In this document: in pieces, positions 18-22,132 of the stretch
How the letters are laid out: each line of letters begins with the position of its first letter
How positions within the stretch are numbered: the first letter of the stretch is position 1
Translations under genes and position numbers: made by a program
Notes under the pieces: model-generated
The model's database searches: none
What the model saw: only the letters and a program-made list of their open reading frames with translations
Told to the model about the DNA's origin: nothing
From: an uncultured Spartobacteria bacterium
Lineage (GTDB): Bacteria; Verrucomicrobiota; Verrucomicrobiia; Chthoniobacterales; Terrimicrobiaceae
Length of the DNA stretch: 44,138 nt
Assembly: GCA_937919825.1 (NCBI GenBank)
Contig: CALFPA010000015.1
Location: 1-44,138 of the forward strand
Direction: 5' to 3'

Positions 18-836
18 ATGATCAGTATCAATACAAATACGGCCTCCAGTCTGGCAGCGTATAATCTCGGAAGCACCAATGTGAACCTGCAAAGGAGCCT
101 GCAAAGACTCTCGAGCGGAACGCGAATCAACTCCTCAATTGACGATGCCGGTGGGTTGGCGGTGTCGATGAAGCTCTCGGCGTCAATCCGTCGCACCGAG
201 GCTACCCAGGCGAATGTGAACAACGCGCTGTCGTTTTTGCAGACGCAAGATGGAGTGATGAAAAATGCGCAACAAATTCTGTTGCGTTTGTCTGAATTGG
301 GCCAATTGGCAGCGGATGTTACAAAATCCACAACGGATACCTCGTTGTATCAAACAGAATTCAGTTCACTGACATCGGCATTGAGCGCGATGACATCGGA
401 GGAGTTCAATGGAGTAGGAATGTTTGATACGACTACTGCAACAAGTCTGACAGTCGTAACATCCGAAAACGGAGGACAAACCAACGGGATTACGATCTCC
501 GATCTGAACGCGATTGTTACCAGTCTGAATAGCTTGGATGTTAGCGACACAACCGCAGCAATCACAACGACTATTTCGACATTGGAAACAGCGATTCAGG
601 ATCTTGCAGGGCTCCGCGCCACGAATGGATCGGAACAACAGAGGCTAACCTTCGCAGCCGACATGCTGGCGATCAACAAGGTGAATCTGGAATCGGCCAA
701 TGGGCGGATCGCGGATGTGGATATCGCAAGCGAAAGCGCGAACCTGGCCCGGTTGAATATCTTGCAACAGGCTGGGACGGCAATGCTGGCGCAGGCGAAC
801 ATGTCCACGCAATCGGTTCTACGACTGTTAGCATAA
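18..836 (+). CDS. Flagellin (copy 1)
   Basis: A 272-residue flagellin, the filament subunit exported through the flagellar type III apparatus. Residues 1-105 carry the conserved N-terminal D0/D1 helices (RLSSGTRINSSIDDAGGLAV, then FLQTQDGV) and about residues 195-272 the C-terminal helices (ADVDIASESANLARLNILQQ, MLAQANMSTQ, ending LRLLA). The central surface domain is only about 90 residues and Ser/Thr-rich, so this is a short flagellin with many possible O-glycosylation sites. There is no signal peptide and no cysteine. The start is fixed by the AAAGGA site. It heads a run of four flagellin genes; paralogues follow at 1283, 2122, 3058 and 21266. Confidence 0.95.
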   Translation: MISINTNTASSLAAYNLGSTNVNLQRSLQRLSSGTRINSSIDDAGGLAVSMKLSASIRRTEATQANVNNALSFLQTQDGVMKNAQQILLRLSELGQLAADVTKSTTDTSLYQTEFSSLTSALSAMTSEEFNGVGMFDTTTATSLTVVTSENGGQTNGITISDLNAIVTSLNSLDVSDTTAAITTTISTLETAIQDLAGLRATNGSEQQRLTFAADMLAINKVNLESANGRIADVDIASESANLARLNILQQAGTAMLAQANMSTQSVLRLLA

Positions 837-1282: not shown

Positions 1283-2092
1283 ATGATTAGCATCAATACT
1301 AATGTGGCCTCCATGTCGGCGGCATACAACTCAACCAATACGAATCGTGAGCTTCAGAAAAGCCTCCAACGCCTATCCAGTGGATTGCGAATCAATTCAT
1401 CATCGGATGATGCCGGCGGTTTGGCGGTTTCCATGCGATTATCCGCCGCAGTGAGGAGAACAGAGGCAACTGGCAGAAATGTCAATAATGCAATCTCGTT
1501 CCTTGCAACTCAAGATGGCGTTTTGGATGCCGCTGGAAAAGTGCTCACCCGCTTGGCTGAACTAGCTCAACTCAATGCAGATAATACAAAATCAACAAAC
1601 GATAAGGCACTCTATGAAACCGAGTTTGATGAATTAGTTTCAAGCATTGATAGCTCTGGGGATGAGACTTTCAATGATCAGGTGTTATTTTCCGCAGGGG
1701 GCAACACTCTGGAGGTAATTTACTCGGAGGATGGTTCTAGGACCACAGGTATAACACAAGCAGATTTGGCGGCAATCCACACGGATCTTGCGGGAATTGA
1801 TTTCCTCGCTGATGCCGTGACGGATACGATCGATGCCATTGATACAGCAATTAATGATCTCGCTCAGATGCGGGCACAAAATGGAGCCGAGCAAACAATG
1901 CTTACGCATGCCTCGGATCTTCTAAAGATAAATCAAATCAATCTCGAGGCGGCAAATAGCCGCATCATGGATTTAGATATCGCCAACGAGAGTTCCAACC
2001 TCGCTAGGTTAAATATTATGCAGCAGGCAGGCATGGCAATGCTTGCCCAAGCCAATCAAAGCCAAGATGCAGTTCTGCGACTGCTCTATTAA
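1283..2092 (+). CDS. Flagellin (copy 2)
   Basis: A 269-residue flagellin with the same layout as copy 1. It has N-terminal D0/D1 (MISINTNVASMSAAYN, RLSSGLRINSSSDDAGGLAV, FLATQDGV), a short acidic central domain of about 90 residues, and a C-terminal D1/D0 (MDLDIANESSNLARLNIMQQ, MLAQANQSQDAVLRLLY). The leader is identical to that of copy 1 over the last 17 bases. It shares the operon direction with copies 3 and 4; only 29 bases separate it from copy 3, so co-transcription is likely. Divergence among copies in the central domain suggests a mixed-subunit filament. Confidence 0.95.
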   Translation: MISINTNVASMSAAYNSTNTNRELQKSLQRLSSGLRINSSSDDAGGLAVSMRLSAAVRRTEATGRNVNNAISFLATQDGVLDAAGKVLTRLAELAQLNADNTKSTNDKALYETEFDELVSSIDSSGDETFNDQVLFSAGGNTLEVIYSEDGSRTTGITQADLAAIHTDLAGIDFLADAVTDTIDAIDTAINDLAQMRAQNGAEQTMLTHASDLLKINQINLEAANSRIMDLDIANESSNLARLNIMQQAGMAMLAQANQSQDAVLRLLY

Positions 2093-2121: not shown

Positions 2122-2922
2122 ATGATTAATGTAAATACAAATATTGCAGCATTAAAAGTGATGACGGCTTTTAATGACTCCCAAGGCAACCTCTCGAAAG
2201 CCTTGCAAAGGCTTTCCAGCGGATTGCGCGTTAATTCTTCTCAAGATGATCCCAGTGGATTGGGGGTTTCGATGAGGCTGAATGCACAAATCGCACGGAA
2301 AAGTGTGGTTTATGATGAAGTCAATAATGCGGTATCTTTTTTAGATACTCAAGACGGCGTGATGGATGCCGCCAATTCTGTGCTGCAACGCATGGCTGAA
2401 CTCACGCAACTTGGTGTCGGTAGTTTGAACACAAGCGCTCAAGCAATTTACCAAGTTGAATACGATGAACTTGAGGATGAGTTGGAGGGCCTCTTGAGTG
2501 AGGAGTTCAATGGTAAAAGTTTGTTTGCCGATGGTGGCGGATCGCTCACGGTCTTCACCTCGGACAACACGTCGCAAACGGCATCCATGACTCAAGCGAA
2601 CATGGAGGATCTAGTCTATGATGTCGTTAATGGAGGAAGTGTAACAAATACAGCTACATACTCTGCGATAACAACGGCAATCAATAACCTTGCTGAACTG
2701 CGTGCAACCAATGGCGCCGAGCAGAATCGCTTTGAGCGGGCGGCAAGCGTTTTGGATGCAGGAATTATCAATCTGACTGCGGCAAATAGCCGAATCATGG
2801 ATGCAGATGTTGCTCAGGAGTCCGTGAATATGACAAAGTATGATATTCTCCAGCAATCAAGCCTCGCCATGTTGGTTCAAGCCAACCAGAACAAAGAAAA
2901 TATCCTGCGGTTGCTGGAATAG
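2122..2922 (+). CDS. Flagellin (copy 3)
   Basis: A 266-residue flagellin. The N-terminal block is more diverged (RLSSGLRVNSSQDDPSGLGV, where copies 1 and 2 have DDAGGLAV), and the C-terminal block reads MDADVAQESVNMTKYDILQQ, then MLVQANQNKENILRLLE. This substitution pattern sets it apart from copies 1, 2 and 5 and may mark a minor or specialised subunit. No good Shine-Dalgarno precedes the ATG (ATAGAAAGCTAATATT), so its translation may be coupled to copy 2 or weak. It is followed by a long inverted repeat and then by the lectin-domain flagellin. Confidence 0.93.
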   Translation: MINVNTNIAALKVMTAFNDSQGNLSKALQRLSSGLRVNSSQDDPSGLGVSMRLNAQIARKSVVYDEVNNAVSFLDTQDGVMDAANSVLQRMAELTQLGVGSLNTSAQAIYQVEYDELEDELEGLLSEEFNGKSLFADGGGSLTVFTSDNTSQTASMTQANMEDLVYDVVNGGSVTNTATYSAITTAINNLAELRATNGAEQNRFERAASVLDAGIINLTAANSRIMDADVAQESVNMTKYDILQQSSLAMLVQANQNKENILRLLE

Positions 2923-2942: not shown

Positions 2943-3009
2943 AAAGGAGTTAAGAGTTTTCTCATAGAAATGAGTTGTCCCATGATGGATGTAAAAACTC
3001 TCCTCCTTT
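2943..3009 (+). promoter_or_regulatory. Long inverted repeat in the leader of the lectin flagellin
   Basis: AAAGGAG-TTA-AGAGTTTT pairs with AAAACTCT-C-CTCCTTT across 33 bases, and the loop itself holds a smaller stem (CTCAT-AGAA-ATGAG). The paired arm includes AGGAG-like sequence but lies 50-115 bases before the ATG at 3058. There is no T run after it, so it is not a standard terminator. It sits between copies 3 and 4 and could set a different expression level for the lectin flagellin by attenuation, processing or mRNA protection. Confidence 0.5.
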
Positions 3010-3057
3010 GCCGGTAAATCCTGCGCAGGCTTCAATTTAGCATCAACAAAAAAGACT

Positions 3058-4353
3058 ATGAATATCAAAAATATGTTTTCGCAGTTGCTTCTCGTAGACT
3101 CATATCAGGTCGTTAATAGGAATCATGCAACGACAGTCGAAAGGATTTCGAGTGGGTTGCGGATCAACTCCTCCAAGGATGATGCCTCACAAATCGGTGC
3201 GCTCTCGCAGGTTGATGCGAACATCATGGAACAGAGCGTGTTCGCGCGGGCAACAAGCGAGGCGATGTCGTTTTTAAAAACGCAAGAAGAAGCCATGAAT
3301 TCGATGGCAGAAATCTTGACCGAGATGAAAGTTCTGAAGGCATCCGCCGATGCAGCTCTTGCCCTGGGGGGGGACATTACTGCAATAGAAGAGAATTACC
3401 AAAAACTCCAGAGCGAGTTTGTTGAGATCACAGAAGAATATTTTAATGGAGTCACATTATTTTCTGCAGGAGTGAGCAACACTGTGCGTGAATTCTCCTT
3501 TGTGAAGGGGAGTCGATCGTTTCAGACTACCCAATACGCAGTCTCCAACATGAAGCTGGGAAATACATTTAAGGTTGGGGAAACATACAGCGTGTATTCT
3601 CGTATTGATCACTCCGCAAGTCTTATAACTTGGCAGGATGCAAAGACCGAGGCTGAGTCCCTAGGCGGGTATTTGGCAGTAATTACGAGTGCGCAAGAAA
3701 ACAATGCCGTGAGAACCGCTATCAGTGGGGCTTGGGGGGGATGGTTGGGCATCCATAAGCCTGCAGGAGGAAACTGGGTTTCGCTAACAGGCGAATCAGT
3801 GACCTATACGAATTGGTTTAATGAGGGCGTTAATTCTGGAGTCCACTATGCGGCCGTGTTCCGGGGTGATGGTCTTTGGAATGGCTATAATTGGACTGTC
3901 TCAACGCAAAAAGCGCCCTACTATGTCCTCGAAGTGGAAAACACATATTCTCTTGCAGATGTCGATGCCTCAGACATTCAAGCAAACCTCCAAAACTTAT
4001 CTCAAGCTATTGCTCAAAATGGCGTTGAGCAGCGTAGAATCTCACGACTTCAATCGATTGCTCATGAAAATGCTCAAAATCTCTCGGGAATTGCTGGCCG
4101 AATGGAAGATGCGGATTACGCCCAAGAAACTATAAACAATTCCAAACAAATCCTTAGTTCTGAATCCACATTGGCTTTGCTGTCTCAGGCGAATATTCGC
4201 TCACAATCCATGCTCAGGCTTTTGTATGCGCGAATAGACAGGGAGTGGGATTTTACTCCGAAAAATAATGAAGAGAACTCCGATGACAAAAGATTTTCAC
4301 CGCTTCAGCAATCGCTGATTGATGTGGATGACGATAATAGCCTGAGAACTTAG
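3058..4353 (+). CDS. Flagellin with an inserted C-type-lectin-like domain
   Basis: 431 residues. Residues 1-150 are flagellin D0/D1 (VERISSGLRINSSKDDASQI, FLKTQEEAMNSM) and about 300-389 are the returning D1/D0 helices (EDADYAQETINNSKQILSSE, LLSQANIRSQSMLRLL). Between them, about residues 178-296 form a C-type lectin-like domain: TWQDAKTEAESLGGYLAVIT, GWLGI, YTNWFNEG, GLWNGYNW and YYVLEVE follow the family order. It has no cysteines, and the calcium motif EPN/QPD is not recognisable, so sugar binding is unproven. A further 42-residue charged tail follows the point where flagellins normally end. The stop overlaps the stop of the opposite glycosyltransferase gene. Insertion in the variable domain would display the lectin fold on the filament surface. 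Confidence 0.9.
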   Translation: MNIKNMFSQLLLVDSYQVVNRNHATTVERISSGLRINSSKDDASQIGALSQVDANIMEQSVFARATSEAMSFLKTQEEAMNSMAEILTEMKVLKASADAALALGGDITAIEENYQKLQSEFVEITEEYFNGVTLFSAGVSNTVREFSFVKGSRSFQTTQYAVSNMKLGNTFKVGETYSVYSRIDHSASLITWQDAKTEAESLGGYLAVITSAQENNAVRTAISGAWGGWLGIHKPAGGNWVSLTGESVTYTNWFNEGVNSGVHYAAVFRGDGLWNGYNWTVSTQKAPYYVLEVENTYSLADVDASDIQANLQNLSQAIAQNGVEQRRISRLQSIAHENAQNLSGIAGRMEDADYAQETINNSKQILSSESTLALLSQANIRSQSMLRLLYARIDREWDFTPKNNEENSDDKRFSPLQQSLIDVDDDNSLRT

Positions 4354-6329
4354 GAGTTTTTTTGCTGAGCACACCACTCGCACCAAGCTTGGCGGAGGGA
4401 GGACTCGAATTGAGCGGCTTGCCCAGCGTGGTCGAGAAGCGGGCTTTTTGAGACATCTTCACGAAGGCTGTGGCGGAGGGATTCTCGAAGCGGTCGATCC
4501 TGGGCCAGAGCGACGGCTTTTTCGATGTAGGCTTCGGCGTTTTCGGTTGCCCAGTCCGCATGGCCGACTGCCGATAGCAGAGACAACCCCACGCGCGAGG
4601 CGTGGCGGTCGCCGGCAAGCGTGACCACGGGAACGCCCATCCAGAGGGCCTCGCAGGTCGTCGTGGTGCCGTTGTAGGGAAAGGTGTCGAGGGCAACATC
4701 CACGCGGGAGTAGGCGGCGAGGTGTTCGGCGGGGCTTGCAAAGAAGCCGAGGAGTTCGACTCGGTCGTTGGGAATTCCAGAGGTGGCGAGTTTTTCGCGG
4801 ACGCTGGTTTGCACATCGGCGTCTTCGAGATAGGGGCTTTTGATCAGAAGGCGTGAGTCGGGAACACGCTCCAGAATCCGCGCCCAGACAGCCAAAGTCT
4901 CGCTCGTGACTTTTAAAAAATTGTTGAAGGAGCCAAAGGTAATCGGCGTTGCCTCATCGGGCATCGCTTGCTCCGGGGCATTGGTGGGTGGTTCGTAGGC
5001 CCAGGCGCAGGAGGAAAAACGAACGAGTTTTTCAGTCGCGAAGGCATCGGCTTCTCCTTCAGGGTCGGTGATGCCATCGACAAGACGGTGGCCAATCGCT
5101 GGCAGTCCGGTCGTGTTGGGGTAACCGAGATAGGTCATCAAAACCGGCGCAGGATTTTTTGCAAAAAGCGTCAAGCGGTTCATCGAAGAATGCCCGGCAA
5201 GATCGATCAAAATATCCGGGGCGTCCTTGCGGATCATCTCGAGCGCGGCCTCATCATCGAGGCCGTTGAGATTGATCCATTTTTTGGAAAGAGCGCGGAG
5301 CTCGGAGCTCGTCGAATCCTCGGTGTGATGGCAATGATAGAGAATCGTCTCCACCTGCTCTGGATCAAGGTTTGCAAGGATCGGCTTGAGAAAAAACGCG
5401 ACCGAGTGATAACGAAAATCAGGAGAGACAAAACCGACGCGCAGTTTTTTTTCCGGGTCGGGTGGATTGAAAAAAACTTGAAACTCGTCGGTGGGAAATT
5501 GGGAGCCGAACTCCTTGTGGGCCTCGAAGACGGCTAGTCGGTCTTGGCCGGGGAGATAATTCAGAAGCATATTCCGCGCGCTGAGCACCCGGGCGTTCTG
5601 TGGCTCCATCCAGAGGATCGAATTGTGCAGGTCGAGCGACTCCTCGGTTTTGTAAAGCCGCATGAGGCCGAGCGCTCGTGCCGACGAGGCGCTGGTGAGG
5701 AAGGGGTCGGCCTGCAGTGCCTTGTCGAAACACTCCATGCCCTCGCCCACACGGCCGGACTGCTCGATGAGTGACAGGCCGAGATTGCTCCAAGCCACCG
5801 CCATGGAGGGATCGATTTCCGTGGCCTTCTGAAAGTGCGGCTCGGCCGCCGGAAAGCCCATCACGCGAGCCGTAACTTCGCCTAGTTGCTCGTGCGCCGC
5901 GGCATTCGCGGGTTGAAGCGAAACAAATTTCTCCAGCGCCGCCACGGCCTCCTTCGCCTGGCCAGTGGCCCGAAGGCAGCGCGCGAGGTTTTCCCAAGCC
6001 TCGGCTTGGTGGGGAGCTTTCTTCAGTGCTCGCGACAAATGCGGTTCCGCTTCGGCGAAGCGACCAAGATCCGCCAAGGCCATCCCGAGGAACATCCGAC
6101 ATTCGATGGAGTCCGGCTTAATCTTCCGAGCCTTCTCAAGCAGCTCCGCCGCCTTTTCCAAATGCCCACCGCGCTGGAACGCCATTGCTCCTGAGAGAAA
6201 CCACGCATCAAAATCTCTCGGGCACTCGGCCCTCACCCGCGCGTAAATTTTCTCTGCCTCGTCATGGCGGAGAGCCCTGTGAAGCGCCAGCGCCTCCTCG
6301 AGTTGATTGGTGCGTTGCTTTTGATTCAT
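4350..6329 (-). CDS. TPR protein with GT41 (SPINDLY/OGT-like) glycosyltransferase domain
   Basis: 659 residues. Residues 1-290 are tandem tetratricopeptide repeats (for example AVAWSNLGLSLIEQSGRVGE). From about 294 to 650 follows a GT41 catalytic domain: LRVGFVSPDFRYHSVAFF, LIDLAGHSSMNRL, YLGYPNTTGLP, FGSFNNFLKVTSETLAVWA and DTFPYNGTTTTCEALWMGVP. The HSVAFF motif is closer to SPINDLY-type fucosyltransferases than to the HPxxH of OGT, and the lysine of FNNFLK aligns with the nucleotide-sugar-binding lysine of OGT. Such soluble enzymes glycosylate Ser/Thr of proteins. Its tail-to-tail position with the lectin flagellin makes flagellin the likely acceptor; the donor sugar is unknown. Confidence 0.9.
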   Translation of the reverse strand: MNQKQRTNQLEEALALHRALRHDEAEKIYARVRAECPRDFDAWFLSGAMAFQRGGHLEKAAELLEKARKIKPDSIECRMFLGMALADLGRFAEAEPHLSRALKKAPHQAEAWENLARCLRATGQAKEAVAALEKFVSLQPANAAAHEQLGEVTARVMGFPAAEPHFQKATEIDPSMAVAWSNLGLSLIEQSGRVGEGMECFDKALQADPFLTSASSARALGLMRLYKTEESLDLHNSILWMEPQNARVLSARNMLLNYLPGQDRLAVFEAHKEFGSQFPTDEFQVFFNPPDPEKKLRVGFVSPDFRYHSVAFFLKPILANLDPEQVETILYHCHHTEDSTSSELRALSKKWINLNGLDDEAALEMIRKDAPDILIDLAGHSSMNRLTLFAKNPAPVLMTYLGYPNTTGLPAIGHRLVDGITDPEGEADAFATEKLVRFSSCAWAYEPPTNAPEQAMPDEATPITFGSFNNFLKVTSETLAVWARILERVPDSRLLIKSPYLEDADVQTSVREKLATSGIPNDRVELLGFFASPAEHLAAYSRVDVALDTFPYNGTTTTCEALWMGVPVVTLAGDRHASRVGLSLLSAVGHADWATENAEAYIEKAVALAQDRPLRESLRHSLREDVSKSPLLDHAGQAAQFESSLRQAWCEWCAQQKNS

Positions 6330-6488: not shown

Positions 6489-6734
6489 ATGATTGCCAGC
6501 CTTCGTGAATCCAAGACCCGATTGAGCGAGTTGGTGAGCCTTGCCAATTCCGGCGAGGAGATTTTAATCACGGTTCATGGCCAACCCAAGGCCCGCCTTC
6601 TGCCTGTTTCGGAGCCTCGTTCCGATACCGTGGATTGGTTGCGCGAGTTAAGCGATCTTCGTTCAAGTTTGGTTCAACCCTCGAACGAGCAAAAAACGAG
6701 CGCGCTGGATGAAGTGCGGGAGGATCGTTGGTGA
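6489..6734 (+). CDS. Phd/YefM-family antitoxin
   Basis: 81 residues. The N-terminus (IASLRESKTRLSELVSLANS, EEILITVHGQPKARLLP) is the DNA-binding Phd/YefM fold, which represses its own promoter; the C-terminal 35 residues would wrap the toxin. It overlaps the PIN toxin gene by the sequence GTGA, the usual antitoxin-then-toxin order with translational coupling. First complete gene of the toxin-antitoxin insert. Confidence 0.88.
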   Translation: MIASLRESKTRLSELVSLANSGEEILITVHGQPKARLLPVSEPRSDTVDWLRELSDLRSSLVQPSNEQKTSALDEVREDRW

Positions 6735-7195
6735 AAGCCCCTTACTGGGACACCTCCTGCGTGCTGGCACTCTATGTGCCGGAACAGATCTCATCGCAAG
6801 CTTCCGATTTGGCCTCTGCGGAAAAGGGGCCAATACATTCCAGCGCCATTCTGGAATTTGAAATGACCTTTGCTATTCACGCGAAGGAAGCCATAGGCGA
6901 GATTCCAAGTGGGAGTTCCAAGAGACTTCTGTCCCGGTTCCAAACCGATCTCCAGCGGGGGCGCTACCTGCTTGTGCCCTTGGGCATTGATATCAAGGCC
7001 AGCGGCAACGAGATCGCTTCCAGAATCCTCCAAACAGAGCCTCCTGTTTTTTTGCGCACGCTCGACGGGATTCATATCGCCACAGCTCTGAAGCTGGGCT
7101 CCCCAGAGTTGGTCACTGCAGACAAGAAAATGGCTGACGCGGCAAATCTACTTGGTATAAAGACCAAACTCCTTAAAATAATCACTTCCGATTAA
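6731..7195 (+). CDS. PIN-domain ribonuclease toxin (VapC-like)
   Basis: About 154 residues from a GTG start that overlaps the antitoxin stop (GTGA); a TTG one codon earlier is the alternative. The PIN acidic residues are visible: Asp7 (YWDTSCVLALY), Glu42 (SAILEFEMTFA), Asp112 (RTLDGIHIATAL) and Asp131 (LVTADKKM). These coordinate the metal ions that cleave RNA, in known VapC toxins tRNA or rRNA. Length is slightly above the usual 130-150. Paired with the Phd-type antitoxin upstream. Confidence 0.88.
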   Translation: MKAPYWDTSCVLALYVPEQISSQASDLASAEKGPIHSSAILEFEMTFAIHAKEAIGEIPSGSSKRLLSRFQTDLQRGRYLLVPLGIDIKASGNEIASRILQTEPPVFLRTLDGIHIATALKLGSPELVTADKKMADAANLLGIKTKLLKIITSD

Positions 7196-7214
7196 ATTAA
7201 AGAAATTTTGCCCT

Positions 7215-7523
7215 ATGAGTCGAGACATGCCATTCAATTTCGATCGGGAAGCTCTTGCGGATTTTTGCCGCCCCCGCGGCATTCGAAAATTGAGTTTGTT
7301 CGGTTCCGCGCTTCGCGATGATTTTCGCCCCGGCGAAAGCGATTTTGATGTTTTGGCTGAATTCGAACCCGGCGCTTTAAGGGGCATTGGATTGGATTTT
7401 TTCTCTTATGGTCCCGACCTAGAGAAAATTCTGGGAGGCAAGGTAGACTTTTGCTCCAAGCTCAACCGATATATTAGACCAATCGTGGAGAAAGAATGCC
7501 TTCTGCTTTATGAGCAAGTTTGA
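7215..7523 (+). CDS. mntA: MNT-type minimal nucleotidyltransferase (MntA antitoxin)
   Basis: 102 residues with the minimal nucleotidyltransferase signature: LSLFGSALRDDF, then ESDFDVL, giving Gly30-Ser31 and Asp43/Asp45 as catalytic residues. MntA-family proteins inactivate the HEPN toxin HepT by transferring AMP to its tyrosine. The HEPN gene follows with a 14-base overlap, so the pair is an MntA/HepT type VII toxin-antitoxin module. An ATG four codons downstream is an alternative start. Confidence 0.88.
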   Translation: MSRDMPFNFDREALADFCRPRGIRKLSLFGSALRDDFRPGESDFDVLAEFEPGALRGIGLDFFSYGPDLEKILGGKVDFCSKLNRYIRPIVEKECLLLYEQV

Positions 7524-7842
7524 TCCTGCTGTCACCCTGCCGCAAACTATTGAATTTATTAAAGAAGCTCAAGCATTGCTCGCTGGGCTTACTATGGAGC
7601 AACTGTTAGCGGACCCTATCAAATTGCGGGCCTTCGAACGGGTGCTGGAGCTTGTCGGAGAGTCGGTTAAAAGAGTTCCTCAGGATTTTCGCGATGAGCA
7701 CTCGCAAATACCCTGGAAAAAAATTGCGGGCATGAGGGATGTCATTAGCCATGCCTACGAGGATTTGGCTTACGAAGTTCTTTGGGATGCTGTTGAGATG
7801 CATTTTCCTAAACTTCTTACAGATCTAAAACAACTTTTATGA
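7510..7842 (+). CDS. hepT: HEPN ribonuclease toxin (HepT, DUF86)
   Basis: 110 residues, all helical in character. The HEPN active motif Rx4HxY is complete: Arg76, His81 and Tyr83 in MRDVISHAYEDL. In characterised pairs the Arg/His cut RNA and the Tyr is AMPylated by MntA. The start overlaps the mntA stop by 14 bases and the stop shares ATGA with the next small gene, so expression is coupled on both sides. Confidence 0.9.
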   Translation: MSKFDPAVTLPQTIEFIKEAQALLAGLTMEQLLADPIKLRAFERVLELVGESVKRVPQDFRDEHSQIPWKKIAGMRDVISHAYEDLAYEVLWDAVEMHFPKLLTDLKQLL

Positions 7843-8024
7843 GTCCTTGTGGCAAATATCCTGTCTACAAAGATATTGCTCGATTTGAGTATAGTCGCTT
7901 GCTATGGAAAAATCCCGCCGCGAGTCAACGACTTCTTGCCCACCGGAGCAACCCTAAGCATCCCCACGAGCAACGATTTCTTGCGAACCAAAGACAGCTG
8001 TTAAACTTCTTCCCGGCCCAATGA
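7839..8024 (+). CDS. Uncharacterised 61-residue protein in the TA chain
   Basis: The gene is framed by ATGA overlaps on both sides (with hepT and with the next MNT gene), which favours real translation. Residues 29-53 (QRLLAHRSNPKHPHEQRFLA) resemble residues 32-55 of the 94-residue product at 9904-10188 (QRLLAW, HPYMQRFL), and the two stretches are also similar as DNA over about 70 bases. No family is recognised. It may be an accessory component or a fragment of a once longer gene that came with the nucleotidyltransferases. Confidence 0.5.
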   Translation: MSPCGKYPVYKDIARFEYSRLLWKNPAASQRLLAHRSNPKHPHEQRFLANQRQLLNFFPAQ

Positions 8025-8317
8025 GAATCACACCCTTCGAACGACGAAGCATCCGCGAGAGCGCCCGCAGGCATTTCGGGGAAGATTGCGCCGCTTATTT
8101 GTTCGGTTCACGAACGCGGGACGATTGGCGTGGCGGAGACATTGATCTTCTCATCGAGACGGAATCCAATGCACCCGTTGAATATGCAAAGAAACTTGCC
8201 TTCCGCAGCGATCTGAAGTCTCGGATCGGCGATCAAAAAATCGATGTGCTTTTCACCCGACCAGGCGATAACCGCCCGATCATCCTCGAGGCCAAGAGTG
8301 AAATGGTAAGACTATGA
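8021..8317 (+). CDS. MNT-type nucleotidyltransferase (second copy)
   Basis: 98 residues with a textbook motif: YLFGSRTRDDWRGGDIDLLI, giving Gly29-Ser30-Arg31 and Asp40/Asp42. The sequence differs from the MntA at 7215, so it is a separate module. It overlaps its neighbours by ATGA at both ends. The downstream partner, expected to be a HEPN-like helical protein, seems truncated (8314-8499), so this antitoxin-type enzyme may now be an orphan. A relic of a close relative lies at 6384-6441. Confidence 0.88.
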   Translation: MRITPFERRSIRESARRHFGEDCAAYLFGSRTRDDWRGGDIDLLIETESNAPVEYAKKLAFRSDLKSRIGDQKIDVLFTRPGDNRPIILEAKSEMVRL

Positions 8318-10268: not shown

Positions 10269-10952
10269 ATGCTTCCTAACCTTGCTCCTTATCTCCAAGC
10301 TCAATTTTTTCAGTGCATAAAAAACCTTGGATTCAATCCTCAACACATTGTCGATGTCGGAGCGAATCGGGGAACTTGGACGCGTAATGCATTCCAGTAT
10401 TTTCCGGATGCTTATTTCTCGATGTTTGAGCCTCAAGCTTATCTATCGGCGAGTTTCTCCGATTTACTCAAAAATCCAAAAATTAAGTTCTATGCCAAGG
10501 GAGCTGGCCCGTGCTCGGGAATGATGAATCTCACCACATCCGACCGGAACGATAGTTTCAGTTTTTCATTTTCCAAGGAAGAGGCGCAGGCTCGAGGAAG
10601 AACACAAGTTAAAGCCCCAGTTGTTGCGCTTGATGAGTTTATGCCATCATTGGCCCTGCCTACACCCGATCTTGTCAAAATTGATGCAGAGGGTTGGGAT
10701 TTGGAGGTTCTAAAAGGTGCTAAGAACACTATTGGCAATGCGCAAGTAGTTTTATTAGAGGCTGCAGTTATGTCCAAAGCCTTCAAGAATACGGTGGATA
10801 AAACAACTGGAGCTATGGCTGAATTAGGATTCAGTGTTTTTGATATCACGGATCTTAACCGAACGCAAAAACACAACGCCCTCTGGCTTATAGAATTGGC
10901 TTTCGTAAAAACTGACGGGCTGCTGGATTGCAAGGTGGATTCGTTTGCGTGA
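10269..10952 (+). CDS. FkbM-family SAM-dependent methyltransferase
   Basis: 227 residues. Residues 28-35 are the SAM-binding motif VDVGANRG; the family's second block, LVKIDAEGWDLEVLKGA, is near residue 137. FkbM proteins O-methylate sugars and polyketides. It opens the sugar-modification cluster (WbqC-like, sulfotransferase, aminotransferase, glycosyltransferase) and lies between flagellin genes, so methylation of a flagellin glycan is the simplest role. The A+T-rich composition matches the next two genes and differs from the housekeeping part of the window. Confidence 0.9.
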   Translation: MLPNLAPYLQAQFFQCIKNLGFNPQHIVDVGANRGTWTRNAFQYFPDAYFSMFEPQAYLSASFSDLLKNPKIKFYAKGAGPCSGMMNLTTSDRNDSFSFSFSKEEAQARGRTQVKAPVVALDEFMPSLALPTPDLVKIDAEGWDLEVLKGAKNTIGNAQVVLLEAAVMSKAFKNTVDKTTGAMAELGFSVFDITDLNRTQKHNALWLIELAFVKTDGLLDCKVDSFA

Positions 10953-11010
10953 TTGCATTATCGATTTGTTATGTTCATTTCCGCCTGAATTTTGGTAGCG
11001 GTGCACTCCG

Positions 11011-11700
11011 ATGAAAATCGCCATCATGCAACCTTATTTCCTGCCATATATAGGCTATTTTCAGCTCATGGCAGCAGTGGATGTTTTTGTCATTTTGGAT
11101 GAGGTCAATTTCATAAAAGGTGGTTGGATCAACCGAAATCGAATTTGGAATGGCAGGGAAGCGATGTGGTTGACATTGCCGCTGGTCGGCGCGAGTTCGA
11201 ACAAACTGATCAGTCAGGTGCAAATTCAAAACGATAATGGCTGGAAGCGAAAAATGCTTCAAACTGTGAGTCAAAGTTATGCCAAAGCACCGGAGGCGAA
11301 ACAAACTGTTGCCTTTTTTTCGAGAATCTTGTCCTACTCAAATGGCGATTTAGTCTCTTGCATCACAAAATCCCTTTGTGAACTACAAAGCCTCTTGCAT
11401 TTACCTTGTAGAATCATTCCTACAAGCAAAGGGTTGTCCAAAACCGACAGCACTGGAGTTGACCGAGTAATTGATATTTGCAGAAATCTTGGCGCTGATG
11501 AATATTGGAACCTACCAGGAGGAAAAGATTTATATCTAGTTGATGATTTCAATGCTCATGATATCTCTCTCAAGTTTTTAGAATGCCAAATGCCTTCCTT
11601 GGGAGTGGCATTGTCAGGAACCGAAAAATTGTCGATCCTTCACCTCATGATGAATTTGCCAATCGAAGAGTTGCAAAAAGTAATAGCTTGTTGCCGATGA
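11011..11700 (+). CDS. WbqC-like protein
   Basis: 229 residues with the family opening MKIAIMQPYFLPYIGYFQLM, then DEVNFIKGGWINRNRI. WbqC proteins occur in O-antigen and flagellar sugar clusters and are thought to act in aminosugar N-acylation, though the chemistry is not firmly established. The stop overlaps the sulfotransferase start as ATGA, and an aminotransferase follows, so a role on an amino sugar fits the context. Confidence 0.88.
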   Translation: MKIAIMQPYFLPYIGYFQLMAAVDVFVILDEVNFIKGGWINRNRIWNGREAMWLTLPLVGASSNKLISQVQIQNDNGWKRKMLQTVSQSYAKAPEAKQTVAFFSRILSYSNGDLVSCITKSLCELQSLLHLPCRIIPTSKGLSKTDSTGVDRVIDICRNLGADEYWNLPGGKDLYLVDDFNAHDISLKFLECQMPSLGVALSGTEKLSILHLMMNLPIEELQKVIACCR

Positions 11701-12509
11701 GAAGAATCGCTCTTCATGGCGCCCCGCGATCCGGGACAACTTGGCTTGGTGAAATTATCAATAGCTCACCACATGTTGTCTATAAATTTCAGCCACTCTT
11801 TTCTTATAGTCTTAAAAACTTTCTTGGAACCAACTCCTCAACTCAACGAGTCGATGAATTTTTTAAACTCCTGATACAAAGCAATGATCCATTTTGCGAT
11901 CAATCAGAAACCCGGCAGAGCGGTGAGTTGCCTCATTTCAACAAAGTTGCAGACCCATCTATTGTTGCCTACAAAGAAGTTCGCTATCACAATATTCTGC
12001 ATAACTTGGCCAGAACAGACCCTTCGCTCAAATTCATCTTTTTGATCCGAGACCCCGCTGAAGTCTTGGCATCTTGGTATCATGCGCCCAGGGAGTTTCG
12101 CAGAGATCTTGGATGGAACTTTATAGACGAGTGGCGGTATGCCCTGAAGAAAAATCAAAATCTGCCTGAAAATTATTTTGGTTTTGAAAAATGGAAAGAA
12201 AGCGCTCTTATATTTCTTGAATTGCAATCAACAATACCTCAAAGAGTTAAAGTTCTGCATTACGCAGAGTTCAGGAGAAATCTTTGCTCCCAGACCCAAA
12301 ATCTCTTTGATTTTATGGATATTGCTCTTGGGCAACAAACGCTTGATTTTCTGGATGCATCAACAAATAAGGATGCCAAATCGGAATATGGTGTTTATCG
12401 GATTCAAACAAGCCGGTCAAATTTTTTGAGAGAAAATTTCCCCTCCGTCTGGAAAGAAATACATAATGAACTCAAGGGGACTCCACTGGAGAGATTTCTA
12501 AAACCATGA
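11697..12509 (+). CDS. Sulfotransferase (PAPS-dependent)
   Basis: 270 residues from the ATG at 11697, which overlaps the WbqC-like stop as ATGA; a longer in-frame opening to 11583 lies over WbqC coding sequence and is not used. Residues 7-16 (HGAPRSGTTW) are the 5'-phosphosulfate loop for PAPS, and FLIRDPAEVLASWYH near residue 115 is the 3'-phosphate-binding block. The enzyme would sulfate a sugar or protein hydroxyl. It overlaps the aminotransferase gene by ATGA. Sulfation of a flagellin glycan is inferred from the location. Confidence 0.88.
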   Translation: MRRIALHGAPRSGTTWLGEIINSSPHVVYKFQPLFSYSLKNFLGTNSSTQRVDEFFKLLIQSNDPFCDQSETRQSGELPHFNKVADPSIVAYKEVRYHNILHNLARTDPSLKFIFLIRDPAEVLASWYHAPREFRRDLGWNFIDEWRYALKKNQNLPENYFGFEKWKESALIFLELQSTIPQRVKVLHYAEFRRNLCSQTQNLFDFMDIALGQQTLDFLDASTNKDAKSEYGVYRIQTSRSNFLRENFPSVWKEIHNELKGTPLERFLKP

Positions 12510-13630
12510 TGACCTCAAATCCGATTTATGTTGGCAGTCCCAATATTGGCAATCGAGCGGCATTTATAAATCGAGTCACTGAAATTCTTGATAATAGAAG
12601 GTTTTCTAACAATGGTCCTCTGGTTCAACATTTTGAAAAACGAATCGCCGAATTTCTCGGTGTCAATCACTGCGTGGCGATGTGCAATGCGACGGTGGCT
12701 TTGGAAATCGCGAGCCGGGCGTTGAATTTGCACGGCGAGGTTATCGTGCCAAGCTACACCTTTGTGGCAACGGCACACGCCTTGCAATGGCAGGAAATCA
12801 CGCCGGTTTTTTGCGATATGGATCCGGCGACGCACAACATCGATCCGGCCAAGATCGAGAGACTCATTACGCCTAAAACGACAGGAATTCTCGGCGTTCA
12901 CGTATGGGGGAGGGGCTGCGACACGGAAGCAATCGACGAGATTGCGTCGCGTCGAAACCTGAAGGTCATGTATGACGCCTCGCACGGCTTCGCGTGTTCG
13001 AAGGGCGGAAAAATGCTGGGAACTTTTGGCGAATGCGAGGTCTTCAGCTTCCATGCCACGAAGTTCCTGAATTGCTTTGAGGGCGGCGCGGTGGTGACGA
13101 ACAATGACGAATTGGCCGAAAAAATGCGGCTCATGCGGAATTTTGGGTTCCAAGGATTCGACAATGTCATTTATCTCGGAGTGAACGGCAAGATGAGCGA
13201 GGTGCACGCAGCCATGGGACTTACGAATTTGGAGGCGGTTGAAGAAATCATCACGGTGAACCGCCGCAACTATGAGTCGTATCGTGCCGGATTGGCCGAT
13301 GTGCCGGGAATTTCCGTGATCGACTATGATCCCGCCGAGCGGAATAATTATCAATATGTTGTGATCGAGGTGAATTCCGAATCCTGCCCTCGCAATCGCG
13401 ATGAAATCGTGGAGGCTCTCCATGCGGAAAACATTATTGCCAGAAAATACTTCTGGCCCGGTTGCCACAAAATGGAGCCTTACAGGTCGCTACAGCCAAA
13501 TGCAGGATTGCTTCTGAAAGAAACCGAGAAAATCTCGTCAAGGGTTATCGTTTTACCAACTGGTCAAACGGTTGAAGTTGAAACAGTCAACTTAATATGT
13601 AATCTCATTCGCCGGTTTTTAAAAAATTGA
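12506..13630 (+). CDS. DegT/DnrJ/EryC1-family sugar aminotransferase
   Basis: 374 residues. PLP-dependent: Lys186 (SFHATKFLNCFEGGA) is the Schiff-base lysine and Asp157 (MYDASHGF) binds the pyridine nitrogen. These enzymes aminate 4-keto (or 3-keto) nucleotide-6-deoxyhexoses to give donors for surface glycans. Partner enzymes that make the keto sugar are not in the window. The middle of the gene (about 12650-13470) is G+C-rich while both ends are A+T-rich, so the gene looks mosaic. It overlaps both neighbours by four bases. Confidence 0.92.
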   Translation: MMTSNPIYVGSPNIGNRAAFINRVTEILDNRRFSNNGPLVQHFEKRIAEFLGVNHCVAMCNATVALEIASRALNLHGEVIVPSYTFVATAHALQWQEITPVFCDMDPATHNIDPAKIERLITPKTTGILGVHVWGRGCDTEAIDEIASRRNLKVMYDASHGFACSKGGKMLGTFGECEVFSFHATKFLNCFEGGAVVTNNDELAEKMRLMRNFGFQGFDNVIYLGVNGKMSEVHAAMGLTNLEAVEEIITVNRRNYESYRAGLADVPGISVIDYDPAERNNYQYVVIEVNSESCPRNRDEIVEALHAENIIARKYFWPGCHKMEPYRSLQPNAGLLLKETEKISSRVIVLPTGQTVEVETVNLICNLIRRFLKN

Positions 13631-16600
13631 CTATAAATCTAATGGAGAAAGACAAGGATAGAAAATCCGCCTCTAAACTGCCGATACCAGTTAGAATTTC
13701 TGAGCAGGTTTGGGATGATGAAGCGCCTCCTTTTTTGAGTATATGCTGCATAACATATAACCATTCAAAATTTATTAATAAATCGATTGACAGTTTTCTC
13801 ATGCAGGAAACTTCATTTCCTGTTGAAATTATCATAAGAGATGATGCATCCACCGATGGAACCCAAAATATAATTAAGGATTACGCTAAAAAGTATCCGC
13901 ATTTAATTAAAACAATTCTCCATTCCGAAAATCAGTTCAAAAAATCAAAAAGGGCATTCCCCGAAACTTATTCGGTTGCCCGGGGCTATTATATAGCATT
14001 GTGTGAGGGGGATGACTGCTGGACAGATATATCAAAGCTACAGAAACAAGTTTATTTATTGCAACAAAACCCAACAGCCAGTTTTTGCTTCCACAACACG
14101 CTAATAGTAAATGAAAAAATGGAGGTATCCGGGCAACTTCGTCCTCAAAATCCATCCTTAATACATTTCATTGAGGAGTTGCTTGGTAATAATTTCATTC
14201 ATACCTCTTCGATTGTTTTTAGAAAATCCATGCTGCCTCAATTCCCCGAGTGGTATTCCAAGGCACCAATGGGGGATTGGCCGCTTTGCATTCTATTGGC
14301 GGAGAGGGGTCAGTTTCTCTATATCAACGAAGTCATGTCGCATTATAGGTTGCACGGGCAAAGTAGTTGGAGCACCCAGGGTCAAGCAACTCGATGTGCA
14401 AAGACGGCTCATTTGTTTGATTTGCTGAAGGACCACTTTGCAAAAAAGCCAGAGCTTTTGGCCAAGGTGCATAATGGATTTATCATGCATTGCATGAATA
14501 CCGCCAAGGAATTCAAGATTCTAAATGATGTGGAGAGCGCTAATTTCTTTCACGAAAAAGTAATTGAGGCGCTTGCTGGCGTTAAGATTTCTGAAAGAGT
14601 CCAAGAGAGATATGCGAATAAAACTCCCCAGGATTCAGAAAATGTCTCCCTCATAAATTCCGATCCTAAGGTTAAAAACAATACAAATCAGGATGATCCA
14701 CTAGTTAGTATTTGTATTCCGACTTACAATGGTGAACTCTTTATAAAAAACACGCTCCTGTCTGCCATATCACAAACTTTTGCGAATTTAGAAATCATTG
14801 TTTCAGATGATTCCTCAACGGATAGGACTTGTGAGATTGCCGAAGATATCTTACGGGATTGCAAGTTTCCTTTCCGTGTCCTCAAACATGCCCGCTTGGG
14901 ATTGGTAGAAAATTGGAATTTCTGCATCGAAGAAGCAAAAGGGAAGTATATTAAATTTCTCTTTCAAGATGACCACTTGGAGCCCTTTTGTGTTCAGAAA
15001 TTAGTGGAAGTTTCCGAGAGGGAGTCCAATATCGGCATGGTTTTTTCGTGCCGCGGGGTGGAGTCTGTTGGTGGAACCATGATACCAGCGGACTCGATTG
15101 ACCTTCATAAAGGTTGGTCAAGGCTTCAAAGAATTCAAAAAGGAAGCGATTTGCTTCGTGACCCCAAACTTCTAGCCAATCCAATCAATAAAGTTGGGGA
15201 ACCAACAACCGTCCTTCTCAATAAAGAATTATTGAAGTCCTTGGGCGGGTTCGATTCTAAGTTACGACAGCTTGTGGATGTGGATATGTGGCTTAGGATT
15301 ATGATGGCATCCAACATTGGATTTGTGGATGAACAATTATCCACCTTCCGGTTGCACCAAGGTCAAGCCACTCGCGATAATGTAAAAACCGGCATCATTC
15401 AAAGGGACTGGGAAACTTTTTACAGGAAGCTTGCGGAATCCAGTGATTTCAAAAATCTCCCGACATTCCATAAGCGGTTGGCCGCGCAAATGCTGGAGAA
15501 AATTTCTGCAAAATCACCTTCTCAGCTTTCCGATCTTGGGGTGATTGGGGCGTGGCGAGCTAACCCCACTGATCCAGAGAATTTTGAAAAAGTAAAAAGT
15601 TTGCGGTTGCGATTAGCAAAGTCTATATACCAAGTGGATAAGGGGCAATTGGATAGGTTGCTCCAAGACAAATCTGCAGATTCCTACTCGGCGCTTTTAT
15701 TAAGCGGAATCCAATCCGAGTTTATTTCTGCTGAGGATAAGGATTTTTTGCAGAGTATAAAATCCACCGAGGATGCAAGCAAAAAAAACGCTTTCTTTGC
15801 TACAGCCTTATTTAAACCCGCGCATCTCATTCCAGCATTTGATGATTTATCAAAACTGCCCAAAGAATTTCGCAAAACCTTTTTTGAATATCTTTTCAAG
15901 TCGCTTGAGGTTTTCCTGCATCCTGGCGAAGCGGAGTTTTACTGCGCGCATTTGCTGGATTGGCTGGGCGAGGCGGTGAGGAGGATCGAGAAGGAGCCAG
16001 GTGCGGAGTTGACCAGGGCATTGGCAACGGTGGCGATGCAGTTGGCCAATCAAATTCCGTCTTATTGCTCGCCGGAAAGCAACCGGGAACTTACGGGGCT
16101 TCGTGCGAGGGTGATCGAGCATTCCCTGGAAAAACTCGGTGGCGACTTGGCGATACCGGCTAAGGCGAGGCCCGCCCAGCGAGGAAATAGGAAAATCCGG
16201 GTGGGGATTTTGAATGCCCATTTTGGTTTGCAGACGGAGACTTTCGTAACGATGCCGGCGATGCATTTGGACAGGTCGCGGTTTGAGCTTCATTTGTTCC
16301 ATTGCGTGAAAAATCCCGGTGCGATCGAGGATCGTTGCCGGGCGATGGCGGATGGGATGCATCTTTTGCCCGAGGCGATTGGCGAGCGGGTGAAGATGAT
16401 TCGCAATGCGAATTTAGATGTGATCATCATCGGGACGAATATTTCGGCGGTGACGAACCAGATTGCGTTGTTGGCAGCGTTCCGGTTGGCACCGCTTCAG
16501 ATCGTCTCGCATTGCTCACCGATGACGGTGGGATTCAAGAGCTGCGATGCGTTTCTCTCGGGGTATCTGGCCTATAGCCCGGGACTGAGCGAGAAGGAAT

Positions 16601-19600
16601 TCCATGAGAAGTTGATCCTTCTGGATGGGCCACCGGTTTGTTTGGATTACTCCTGCGAGCCGCGTGCGGCGGCGGACGTGGTGCCGGATCGTGCACAACT
16701 TGGAATACCTGCCGAGGCGCCGATTTTCTTCAATGCGGCTAGTTGCTTCAAGATGCCACTGGAGTTGTTGCAGGCCTGGGTGCGGCTTTTGAAGGAGGTT
16801 CCTGAGGCGTATTTGTGCCTGTTGCCGTTTAATCCAAATTGGACGAACAGACTGCCGGAGGTTTCTTTCCGTCGGGTGCTGGAAGGGGTGCTCCAGGAGG
16901 CGGGGGTGGAGTCCAATCGGGTAGTGATCGGGCCTTCGCTGCCAAATCGCGCGGCCGTGATGGAGTTCGAACGGATCGCCGATGTTTATCTGGATACCTT
17001 TCCATTTGCCGGAAGCATTTCGACTGTAGATCCGCTGCAGTTGGGGATTCCCGTGGTGGCCTGCGATGGAAAAACGACGCGATCGAGGTGTTCCGGCGCC
17101 CAACTCAGGGAGATCGGGATGGAGGAACTTGTGGCGAGGAGTAAGGAGGAATATTTACAAAAAGCGGTCCGCCTCGCTCGGGATGTGGAGTATCGCAATG
17201 ATGTTTCTTTGCGGATTCAGGAGGCGATGTCCCAGAAGCCGAGGTTCCTAGACCCAGCCTCGTATGGTCGCTCGCTTGGGAATGCTCTGGAAATTCTGGT
17301 CGACGAGGGGATCGGGGCGATTTCGGATCCAGTTGCCTTTCATGAGAAGCTGAAGCAGAAAATTACTATGCAATCCCCTGATCCACAACCAGCCTTCCAG
17401 CCAACCTCAGCCACGCTGGAGGCGGCAGTTTCGGCATTCCAAGTGGGGCAGTTGGCGGAGGCAGAGGATATCTGCAGGGCATTGCTGGGCGCGGATGAGA
17501 AGTGCGCGGGGGCTTGGAATCTCATGGCGCGGATGGCGGCGCTGAATGGGGATCTGGAGACGGCGGGGGATTTCGGTGCGGTGGCTTGTGAGTTGGAGCC
17601 GGAGAATGCGGGGTTTGTTCGGTTTTTGGCGGAGGTGTTTTTGAGGCGGAAGGAAATCGAGCAGGCGGAGCAGTTGGCTCGCCGGGCGATGGAGTTGGAG
17701 CCGGAGTCTTCGGAGGGCTTGGTGATGCAGGGTCGCGTGCTGGCGGAGAAAGGGGAGCAGGGGAATGCGCTAGGGGCTTTTGAGAAGGCGCTGCGCCTGA
17801 AGAAGGATGATGCGGAGGCGATCACGCATTACGCAATGGCTCTGCAGAAATTTGAACGGGGCAAGGATGCGATTTCGCAGATTCGCAAGGCGTGTGCGCT
17901 GGAACCGGATTCCGTGGAGCATCAGACCAATTTTGCCTCTCTGCTGGAGCAGAACAAACGCTATGTCGATGCGCTGGCAGCCTACGGCAAGGCGGCGCGG
18001 ATGAATCCCGATGTGGGCTACATTTGGTTTCGACAGGGCAAACTTCTGAACGGCCTGAAGCGTTACGCCGAGTCGATTCCGATGTTGGAAAAAGCGGTTT
18101 CGCTCCCGGGCCGGTTGGGCGAATTCCATTACGAGCTGGGCCTGGCGCTTCATATGTCCAAACGATTTCCCGAGGCCCTCGACCAATATGGTCAGGCGCT
18201 CGCGGCGGGCTACAACACCGCCGCCCTGCAGTGCAACCGGGGTGTGATTTTCAAGGAGCTCCGGCGCGGAGGCGATTCGATCATGGCCTTCCACAACGCC
18301 GTGAAAATGGATCCCTCAAATCTCTCGTATCTCAACAATCTCGGCGCGGCGGCTCTGGAGATTGGCTTGAACAGCGAGGCGTTGGACTGCTTCGAGGAGG
18401 CGGTGCGCCAGAACCCGAAGATCGCCACGGCACAAAACAACATCGGCAACCTGCTCAAAGACCGCGCGCGGGGCATGGATGCCCTCCCGCACTACCGCAA
18501 GTCGATGGAGTTGGATCCATCAAGTTCGGACACGCAAAGCAACTATCTCCTCTGCCACATGTATCTCTCGGAAATGGATCCGAAGACAGTCTTTGAGGAG
18601 CACCGGAAATGGGGCCTCGAAAAGGCGAAAAAAACGCCGCCGGCATTCAAATTCAAGCCGAGGTCGCCAGGCTCGAAGCTCCGCGTGGGTTTTCTATCCG
18701 GCGACCTCTGTCACCACCCCGTGGCGCATTTCATCGAACCGCTTTTCCGCGAATATAATAAGGAGAGTTTTGAATTTGTGGCGTATGGCGACCAGCGGAA
18801 ATCGGACGAGTTTTCGGAGCGTTTCGCCAAGCAAGTCGATCTCTGGCGCGAGACCTGCAGCCTCACCGATGAGGCGCTGGCGAAAAAAATCCATGAGGAC
18901 CGCGTGGATATTCTTTTCGAGTTGTCCGGCCACACGGCCTACAACCGAATGGGTGTCCTCGCATTGAAGCCCGCGCCGCTTCAGGCGAGCTATCTGGGCT
19001 ACCCTGGAACGACCGGCCTGCCGACGATGGATTTCCGCATCACCGATGAGTTGGTGGACCCCGCAGGCATGACGGAAAAATTCCACACCGAGCGGCTCAT
19101 ACGGTTGTCGCGTTGCGCCTGGTGCTATGAACCCGATGCCGTGGCACCCGAGGTGGGGACATTGCCATTCCAGCGAAACGGCCACATTACTTTCGGTTGT
19201 TTCAACAATATGGCGAAACTCAACCCCGCGCTTTTTGACATGTGGGCGGAGATTTTGATCAAGGTTCCCGACTCGCACCTGCGCTTGAAGGCCAGAACAC
19301 TCACCGACGATCGCGTGAAAAACGAGCTGAAGGACTATTTCATCGCGAAAGGCATCGCCGCAGAGCGCCTCGATTTTTTTGGTCACACTAGAAAAATCCA
19401 CGAGCATTTGAACCATTACCACGAGGTGGATATCGCTCTAGACAGCTTCCCCTACCACGGCACCACCACCACCTGCGAGGCGATGTGGATGGGCTGTCCC
19501 GTTGTGACTTGCGCTGGCGCGGCCCATGTCTCGCGCGTGGGAGTGAGCCTGCTCTCGGCCGTGGGCCTGGAGGAATTCATTGGCCAAAATCGGGAAGATT

Positions 19601-19758: not shown

Positions 19759-19985
19759 CCTCAAATTCAGAAGACAATTAACCACAACCGGAAAGGTGGG
19801 AATCTTGGAGGAAGAGCAACCGAAGGTTGGCCCGAAGGGCGAGGGAGTGGGAACGACCGAGTCAAAGACCACAGAGAGCGCAGAGGATGAATGGTCTGTA
19901 GTTCAGTCTGATGAGCACAGGGCGTGTTATCAAAAAATGCACGAGGCCTTCCTGCCCTCCTCTCAAAATTCGTTTCCGGGAGAAA
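19759..19985 (+). other. Gap with a short dispersed-repeat-like motif
   Basis: No gene is seen in these 227 bases between two convergent glycosyltransferase genes. At 19868-19886 stands ACCACAGAGAGCGCAGAGG, which resembles the ACCACAGAGAACACAGAG motif scattered through intergenic DNA of many bacterial genomes; a partial TTAACCACAA lies near 19779. There is no clear terminator. Confidence 0.35.
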
Positions 19986-21265: not shown

Positions 21266-22132
21266 ATGTCAGTAGTAATCAACACCAATACAAGCGCCTC
21301 CTTGGCGTCTTACAACCTCAGCAGCACCAACGTTAACCTCCAGAGAAGCCTTAATCGTCTCTCCAGCGGTTCCCGTATCAATTCCTCCTTCGACGACGCC
21401 GGCGGCACCGCCGTGTCGATGAAGATGAGCGCCTCGATCCGCCGGACCGAAGCCACCCTCGCCAATGTGAACAACTCGGTGGCGTTCCTGCAGACCCAAG
21501 ACGGCGTTCTCAAGAATGCCGACAAGGTTCTCAACCGCATGTCGGAGCTGGCGATGCTGGCCACCGATGTGACCAAGTCCACGAATGATTTGGCACTCTA
21601 CAGCACGGAACTAACCCAACTCAAAGGTCAGCTACAGCTCATGCTCAGCGAGAAGTTCAATGGAATTACATTGTTCGACACTGGCACCACCGCTGGCTTT
21701 GATCAAGGAACAGATGCCGCCACCTTGACGGTAGTGACATCACATGATGGAGATCAATACTTCGATATTACTCGGGCGGACTTGAACTTTATCAGTAGCA
21801 GCAATGGCGTAGGACAAACTGCCGCTACTGGTATGGATATAACTACAACTGCACTAGCAACAACTGCAGTAAATACAATCCAAACTGCCATCCAAAACTT
21901 GGCCACACTCCGCGCCAATAACGGAGCCGAGCAGAGCCGGTTGAGCTTCGCGGCGGACATGCTGTCCATCAACAAGATCAACCTCGAGGCAGCCAACAGC
22001 CGCATCGTCGATGTGGATGTGGCCGCAGAAAGCTCGCAACTCGCCCGCTTCAACATCCTGCAGCAAGCAGGCACGGCGATGCTGGCCCAGGCCAACATGT
22101 CGACCCAGTCGATCCTTCGACTCATCAGCTAA
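21266..22132 (+). CDS. Flagellin (copy 5)
   Basis: 288 residues, the longest plain flagellin here. The N-terminus has RLSSGSRINSSFDDAGGTAV and FLQTQDGVLKNADK; the C-terminus has IVDVDVAAESSQLARFNILQ and MLAQANMSTQSILRLIS. The central region of about 100 residues is Thr/Ser/Asp-rich. It is closest to copy 1. The G+C-rich codons at both ends contrast with the A+T-richer centre. It has its own sigma-28 promoter and a strong terminator, so it is a single-gene unit and probably a main filament subunit. Confidence 0.95.
   Translation: MSVVINTNTSASLASYNLSSTNVNLQRSLNRLSSGSRINSSFDDAGGTAVSMKMSASIRRTEATLANVNNSVAFLQTQDGVLKNADKVLNRMSELAMLATDVTKSTNDLALYSTELTQLKGQLQLMLSEKFNGITLFDTGTTAGFDQGTDAATLTVVTSHDGDQYFDITRADLNFISSSNGVGQTAATGMDITTTALATTAVNTIQTAIQNLATLRANNGAEQSRLSFAADMLSINKINLEAANSRIVDVDVAAESSQLARFNILQQAGTAMLAQANMSTQSILRLIS

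Follow-up and report, generated by a model that had tools for sequence, protein, structure and literature searches.

In flagellinolysin, a metallopeptidase domain occupies the hypervariable region of a flagellin, and in C. haemolyticum the metallopeptidase-flagellin is present in the filament (Eckhard et al. 2017, PMC5595980). The survey in that paper of 26,587 flagellins distinguished 61 types of domain, vWFA domains and peptidases among them; its top ten domains include vWFA and sialidase and no lectin-type domain. Sphingomonas sp. A1 has a flagellin homologue, P5 (PDB 3k8v), that binds the polysaccharide alginate (PMC8286568), and Campylobacter jejuni has a non-structural, secreted flagellin, FlaC (PMC5466977), for which no lectin-fold domain is described. 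We found no published lectin-fold flagellin in the open-access literature (the Eckhard et al. 2017 domain survey being available in part), in line with an initial annotation of this DNA, to which no described example was known. The gene reported here is apparently an undescribed variant of the known outer-domain-swapped flagellins, and with flagellins of its kind that group comprises a recognition fold as well as enzymes.

The gene lies in a stretch of 44,138 nucleotides (the window), which is an entire contig of a 2.7 Mb, 99% complete MAG from the family Terrimicrobiaceae (Verrucomicrobiota, Terrimicrobiales in the NCBI taxonomy). The source genome encodes FlgK, FlgL, FliW, FliD and FlhA, and besides FlgL it has six flagellin genes, five of them inside the window. 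The gene and its parts have the following window coordinates:

3058..4353, + strand: flagellin gene with a C-type lectin-like domain (CTLD-flagellin), 431 amino acids plus stop, frame uninterrupted over 431 codons
3100..3468, + strand: Flagellin_N (N-terminal D0/D1), residues 15-137; Pfam 7.2e-15, helices in the model
3553..3957, + strand: C-type lectin-like domain (CTLD), residues about 166-300; Pfam, fold comparison and domain model
3823..3831, + strand: slot of the EPN/QPD motif, reading E256-G257-V258 (EGV) in alignments
3877..3885, + strand: slot of the WND motif, reading W274-N275-G276 (WNG) in alignments
3967..4227, + strand: C-terminal D1/D0, residues 304-390; Flagellin_C at 307-389, model helices 304-351 and 354-396
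4228..4350, + strand: C-terminal tail present in this gene alone, residues 391-431 (42 residues when 390 is included), with disorder predicted

All three domains of the 3058-4353 protein score above their curated Pfam cut-offs: Flagellin_N with 55.7 bits (cut-off 26.6), Lectin_C at residues 190-277 with 28.0 bits (cut-off 22.6; 3.9e-6) and Flagellin_C at residues 307-389 with 26.0 bits (cut-off 23.0; 1.1e-5). The Lectin_C match is the only one in the whole source genome. An AlphaFold2 model, built from an alignment of the window flagellins and of CTLDs from the other loci examined, places a CTLD (about residues 166-300) between long D0/D1 helices, with pLDDT mostly 75-95. This one model matches two unrelated groups of solved structures. 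The D0/D1 part matches flagellin filaments in Foldseek (E about 1e-9) and, in VIA-align, 7sn4 and 7sn7 (Z 17.7 over 175-183 residues). The CTLD part, whose fold is best known from animals, matches the mouse SRCL CRD (2ox9; Z 17.2, 124 residues at 2.0 A), and CD23, mannose-binding protein (MBP) and tetranectin follow closely; modelled alone, it gives TM values of 0.7-0.8 against MBP and CD23. The protein is thus a flagellin by both of its end domains and its D0/D1 helical filament fold, and it contains a CTLD by the Lectin_C cut-off and by fold. Pfam, AlphaFold2 and the PDB fold comparison agree, and by fold the presence of a C-type lectin domain inside this flagellin is as certain as a prediction can make it. 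The initial annotation had claimed this fold in place of the flagellin variable domain and had named structure prediction as the check on which the claim could fall; Pfam, AlphaFold2, Foldseek and VIA-align concur, and the predicted structure has the CTLD fold.

Two other identities were considered. The protein is not FlgL/HAP3, for it reaches 44.5 bits with TIGR02550 (cut-off 127.2), where the separate FlgL of the source genome has 134.6, and its best family matches are flagellins, at 71 bits. The NCBIfam flagellin equivalog is non-discriminating here, since both this protein (71.3 bits) and the ordinary flagellin at 1283 (145.5 bits) fall below its cut-off of 332. Nor is it a flagellinolysin: HExxH is absent from the translation and the insert is a CTLD.

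Compared with flagellinolysin, the 3058-4353 gene is alike in carrying a foreign domain in the hypervariable region with ordinary flagellins alongside; it differs in having a CTLD, no HExxH and no enzyme. With the C-type lectin-like domains of PF00059 (MBP, CD23, tetranectin, SRCL) it shares core motifs and fold (Z 16-17, about 1.6-2.8 A), but it has no cysteines, reads EGV and WNG for EPN/QPD and WND, and sits in a flagellin. From ordinary flagellin (FliC/Hag) it takes the D0/D1 architecture, end lengths and gene context, whereas its core has diverged, the CTLD replaces a short variable region and a 42-residue tail has been added. The 3k8v structure of Sphingomonas P5 matches the D0/D1 part, and P5, which lacks a CTLD, is a precedent for a polysaccharide binder in the flagellin family.

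We found eight further CTLD-flagellins, with single or tandem CTLDs, in five other species of the same order, which with the source gene makes nine in six species of one order. The search for homologues that the initial annotation had suggested therefore shows the same fusion recurring, and the CTLD insertion is not a one-off. The relatives are as follows:

L050 (genome G011, same genus as the source): CTLD-flagellin with Pfam Lectin_C, gene split by an apparent frameshift
L051 (G005, same genus): CTLD-flagellin, cut by the contig end
L052, L053 and L054 (G073, second family): three flagellins with two tandem CTLDs each, Pfam Lectin_C in L053
L055 (G078, second family): one flagellin with two tandem CTLDs, called from the alignment alone
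L068 and L079 (G103, second family): one CTLD each, Pfam Lectin_C in L068
G106: C-terminal fragment of the tandem-CTLD type

Several other flagellins of the G011 assembly are also split. The tandem-CTLD flagellins L052-L055 are about 580-655 amino acids long. With the entire protein as query, 84,980 genomes yielded no relative. A scan with a reduced CTLD alignment found CTLDs in many phyla, and among the 80 loci kept just two CTLD genes are flagellins, L147 and L166, both of the source order. We found no CTLD-flagellin outside the order in a 388-genome sample of the phylum, with three candidates scored per genome, and no CTLD-flagellin fusion in viral contigs, which yielded two CTLDs and one flagellin fragment.

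The CTLD-flagellins have divergent cores. We scored 59 flagellins with a leave-one-genome-out profile of the core, for which plain flagellins were the source. The 3058-4353 protein has the lowest score of the 59 (123 bits, compared with a median of 338 for the 49 plain flagellins), and the eight scorable CTLD-flagellins range from 123 to 234; the difference between CTLD and plain flagellins has p = 7e-6, which is indicative only because the sequences are interrelated. Low scores in CTLD-flagellins fit specialised subunits and not an effect of insert size, because plain flagellins of 330-600 amino acids, which have long unrelated inserts, keep core scores of 289-355. The end branch of the 3058-4353 gene, at 3.5 changes per column, is the longest in the tree. 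The initial description of the D0/D1 ends as intact therefore stands for architecture and length, which are complete, but not for sequence, which is poorly conserved. Because the cores of CTLD-flagellins are so much more divergent than plain ones, the protein is probably a minor specialised subunit and not the main filament protein.

The sugar-binding site has also changed. Common features of the CTLD alignment are the long-loop motif [EQ]P[ND], an acidic position just ahead of the following aromatic, and W[ND]D; in the 3058-4353 CTLD the slot of the acidic residue reads VHY, and the domain thus lacks both the EPN or QPD and the WND that mark Ca2+-dependent C-type lectins. The whole protein has zero cysteines. 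Because the three slots (EGV, VHY and WNG) correspond to the Ca2+ and sugar ligands established for mannose-binding protein, canonical Ca2+-dependent sugar binding by this CTLD is unlikely, and binding of a ligand in a non-canonical manner is possible. Alignment shows that the congener's L051 retains QPD and WND, and that the tandem-CTLD flagellins retain QPD or EPD, with W-x-D also in the second domain; on these motifs, relatives with both QPD and WND could genuinely bind sugar. Since the CTLDs are small enough for separate expression, and since the full sugar-site motif is kept in some relatives and lost here, their function is directly comparable. If the domains bind, flagella in these bacteria serve selective attachment as well as propulsion.

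The surroundings of the gene in the window include the following:

18..836, + strand: ordinary flagellin, 272 amino acids (Pfam)
1283..2092, + strand: ordinary flagellin, 269 amino acids (Pfam)
2122..2922, + strand: ordinary flagellin, 266 amino acids (Pfam)
2992..3017, + strand: putative sigma-28-like promoter TAAA-N14-GCCGGTAA, 40 nt before the ATG of the CTLD-flagellin
4350..6329, - strand: TPR plus GT41 (OGT-type) glycosyltransferase (Pfam), convergent, a neighbour conserved in congeners G003 and G014
21266..22132, + strand: ordinary flagellin, 288 amino acids (Flagellin_N match; core score)

The three ordinary flagellins just upstream of the CTLD-flagellin are better conserved than it is. 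The pattern TAAA-N14-GCCGGTAA has one match in the window, against 0.04 expected, the site having been spotted by eye before the count was made; no sigma-28-like site was found before the other flagellins. Between the flagellin genes, at 4350-6329 and 10269-21086, are genes for GT41/TPR, a GT2 glycosyltransferase, FkbM, WbqC, a sulfotransferase and DegT, and this set of sugar genes suggests a likely flagellin glycosylation island and a glycosylated filament. Adjoining the flagellin array, at 6728-8317, are a PIN-domain protein (Pfam) and short ORFs that resemble nucleotidyltransferase/HEPN-type toxin-antitoxin pairs, a putative assignment.

The final conserved flagellin residue of the protein is L389, and the 42 residues beyond it (390-431) confirm that the tail noted past the normal flagellin end is real; it is private to this gene. 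Its pLDDT is mostly under 55, other CTLD-flagellins stop at the equivalent of L389 or within about seven residues of it in the alignment, and no homologue of the tail was found in the other loci searched. In G003 and G014 an ordinary flagellin occupies the same slot beside the convergent GT41 gene, and a terminator-like hairpin with a T-run comes after it. Because the tail spans the position of that spacer and terminator in the source contig, and because its stop overlaps the GT41 stop, it looks like the run-on product of a lost stop codon, which is the simplest account. Codon signal matches the coding frame in the N and C parts of the gene; the 41 codons of the tail are too few to decide. Placed within the filament core, the tail might hinder export or polymerisation.

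In the phylogenetic tree, which involves long branches, the source gene groups with that of G011 (support 80/93), and the CTLD-flagellins of the second family lie elsewhere, a topology that requires two changes for the CTLD insertion. By AU test, the data are compatible both with a single CTLD-flagellin clade (p 0.13) and with a grouping of the source gene with the ordinary flagellins that share its slot (p 0.34). Within the source genus, the three CTLD-flagellins occupy different gene neighbourhoods. Diversification of the domain by a diversity-generating retroelement (DGR) was rejected because the 99% complete source genome has no reverse transcriptase (no RVT_1 match).

We give an even chance to the explanation that the protein is an accessory flagellin with a captured recognition domain, co-assembled as a minor subunit. 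A C-type lectin-like domain would have been captured into the outer (D2/D3) position of such a flagellin; the flagellar secretion apparatus would export the product, which by its divergent D0/D1 would join the ordinary flagellins in the filament as a minor and probably localised subunit, and the CTLD would project outwards and serve in recognition or attachment. With the canonical Ca2+-dependent sugar site lost in the source species, binding of any ligand would have to take some other form. The observations behind this explanation are the architecture, the fold, the order-wide recurrence, the motif loss, the divergent core and the flagellar gene context; against it we count the lost sugar site, the tail in the filament core and the end branch of 3.5. 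The initially proposed mechanism has partial support, and the filament probably does not carry a coat of thousands of binding domains on its outside. Fold and position are correct for a dense coat of functional C-type lectins, but the canonical motifs are gone, the core is the most divergent of 59, and better-conserved ordinary flagellins adjoin the gene, with others elsewhere, which makes such a coat very improbable.

A divergent core, a long end branch and better-conserved neighbours are what one would see with a specialised minor subunit, with a secreted flagellin or with a decaying gene. In an exported non-structural flagellin, D0/D1 would serve as a secretion signal and the CTLD would be soluble or surface-attached, outside the filament; the divergent core, the tail that would occupy the filament core and the precedent of C. 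jejuni FlaC (reported as non-structural and secreted, PMC5466977) speak for this, but the D0/D1 regions are full length, have a filament-type fold (Z 17.7) and conserve their terminal motifs, and we consider it unlikely. Decay of a once-functional CTLD-flagellin, now drifting after loss of its sugar site and stop codon, would account for the longest branch in the tree (3.5), the lowest of the 59 core scores, the missing Ca2+/sugar motifs and the run-on tail. We nevertheless rate decay as rather doubtful: 431 codons are free of stops and frameshifts, the structural core of both domains is predicted with good confidence, the N and C parts keep coding-frame codon signal, and a promoter-like site lies upstream. 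The contig of this MAG begins within a repetitive flagellin array, as an assembly chimera might, or the gene could be an annotation artefact; the same architecture in five other species and a right flank collinear with congeners leave this hardly credible. Bacteria of one verrucomicrobial order may repeatedly build adhesive flagella by equipping specialised accessory flagellins with modules of extracellular-matrix type (CTLD, single or in tandem, NIDO, VWA), with the filament acting as a modular adhesin too; we offer this tentatively, as less likely than not.

NIDO and VWA-like versions were found in one congener, G012. A flagellin at L042:5231-6922 (+) has a nidogen-like NIDO domain in the outer position (Pfam 5.3e-27), and another, at L040:1441-2823 (-) within an array of ordinary flagellins, has a VWA-like domain with a MIDAS-like DYSNS (Pfam 5e-5, below the cut-off). 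In G003, two consecutive flagellin genes (L058:1674-3692) are near-identical over their first 150 bases and both lose frame at the same point, after RINNSS, by gene conversion, switching or assembly error. In Verrucomicrobia bacterium TMED44, a flagellin with an outer domain and a separate CTLD protein (L117:1-1059 and 3041-4633) lie about 2 kb apart. In G104, a divergent flagellin lies immediately downstream of a long protein (L081:2-5803) that has a CTLD and Ig-like repeats, a layout that is a possible donor arrangement for domain capture.
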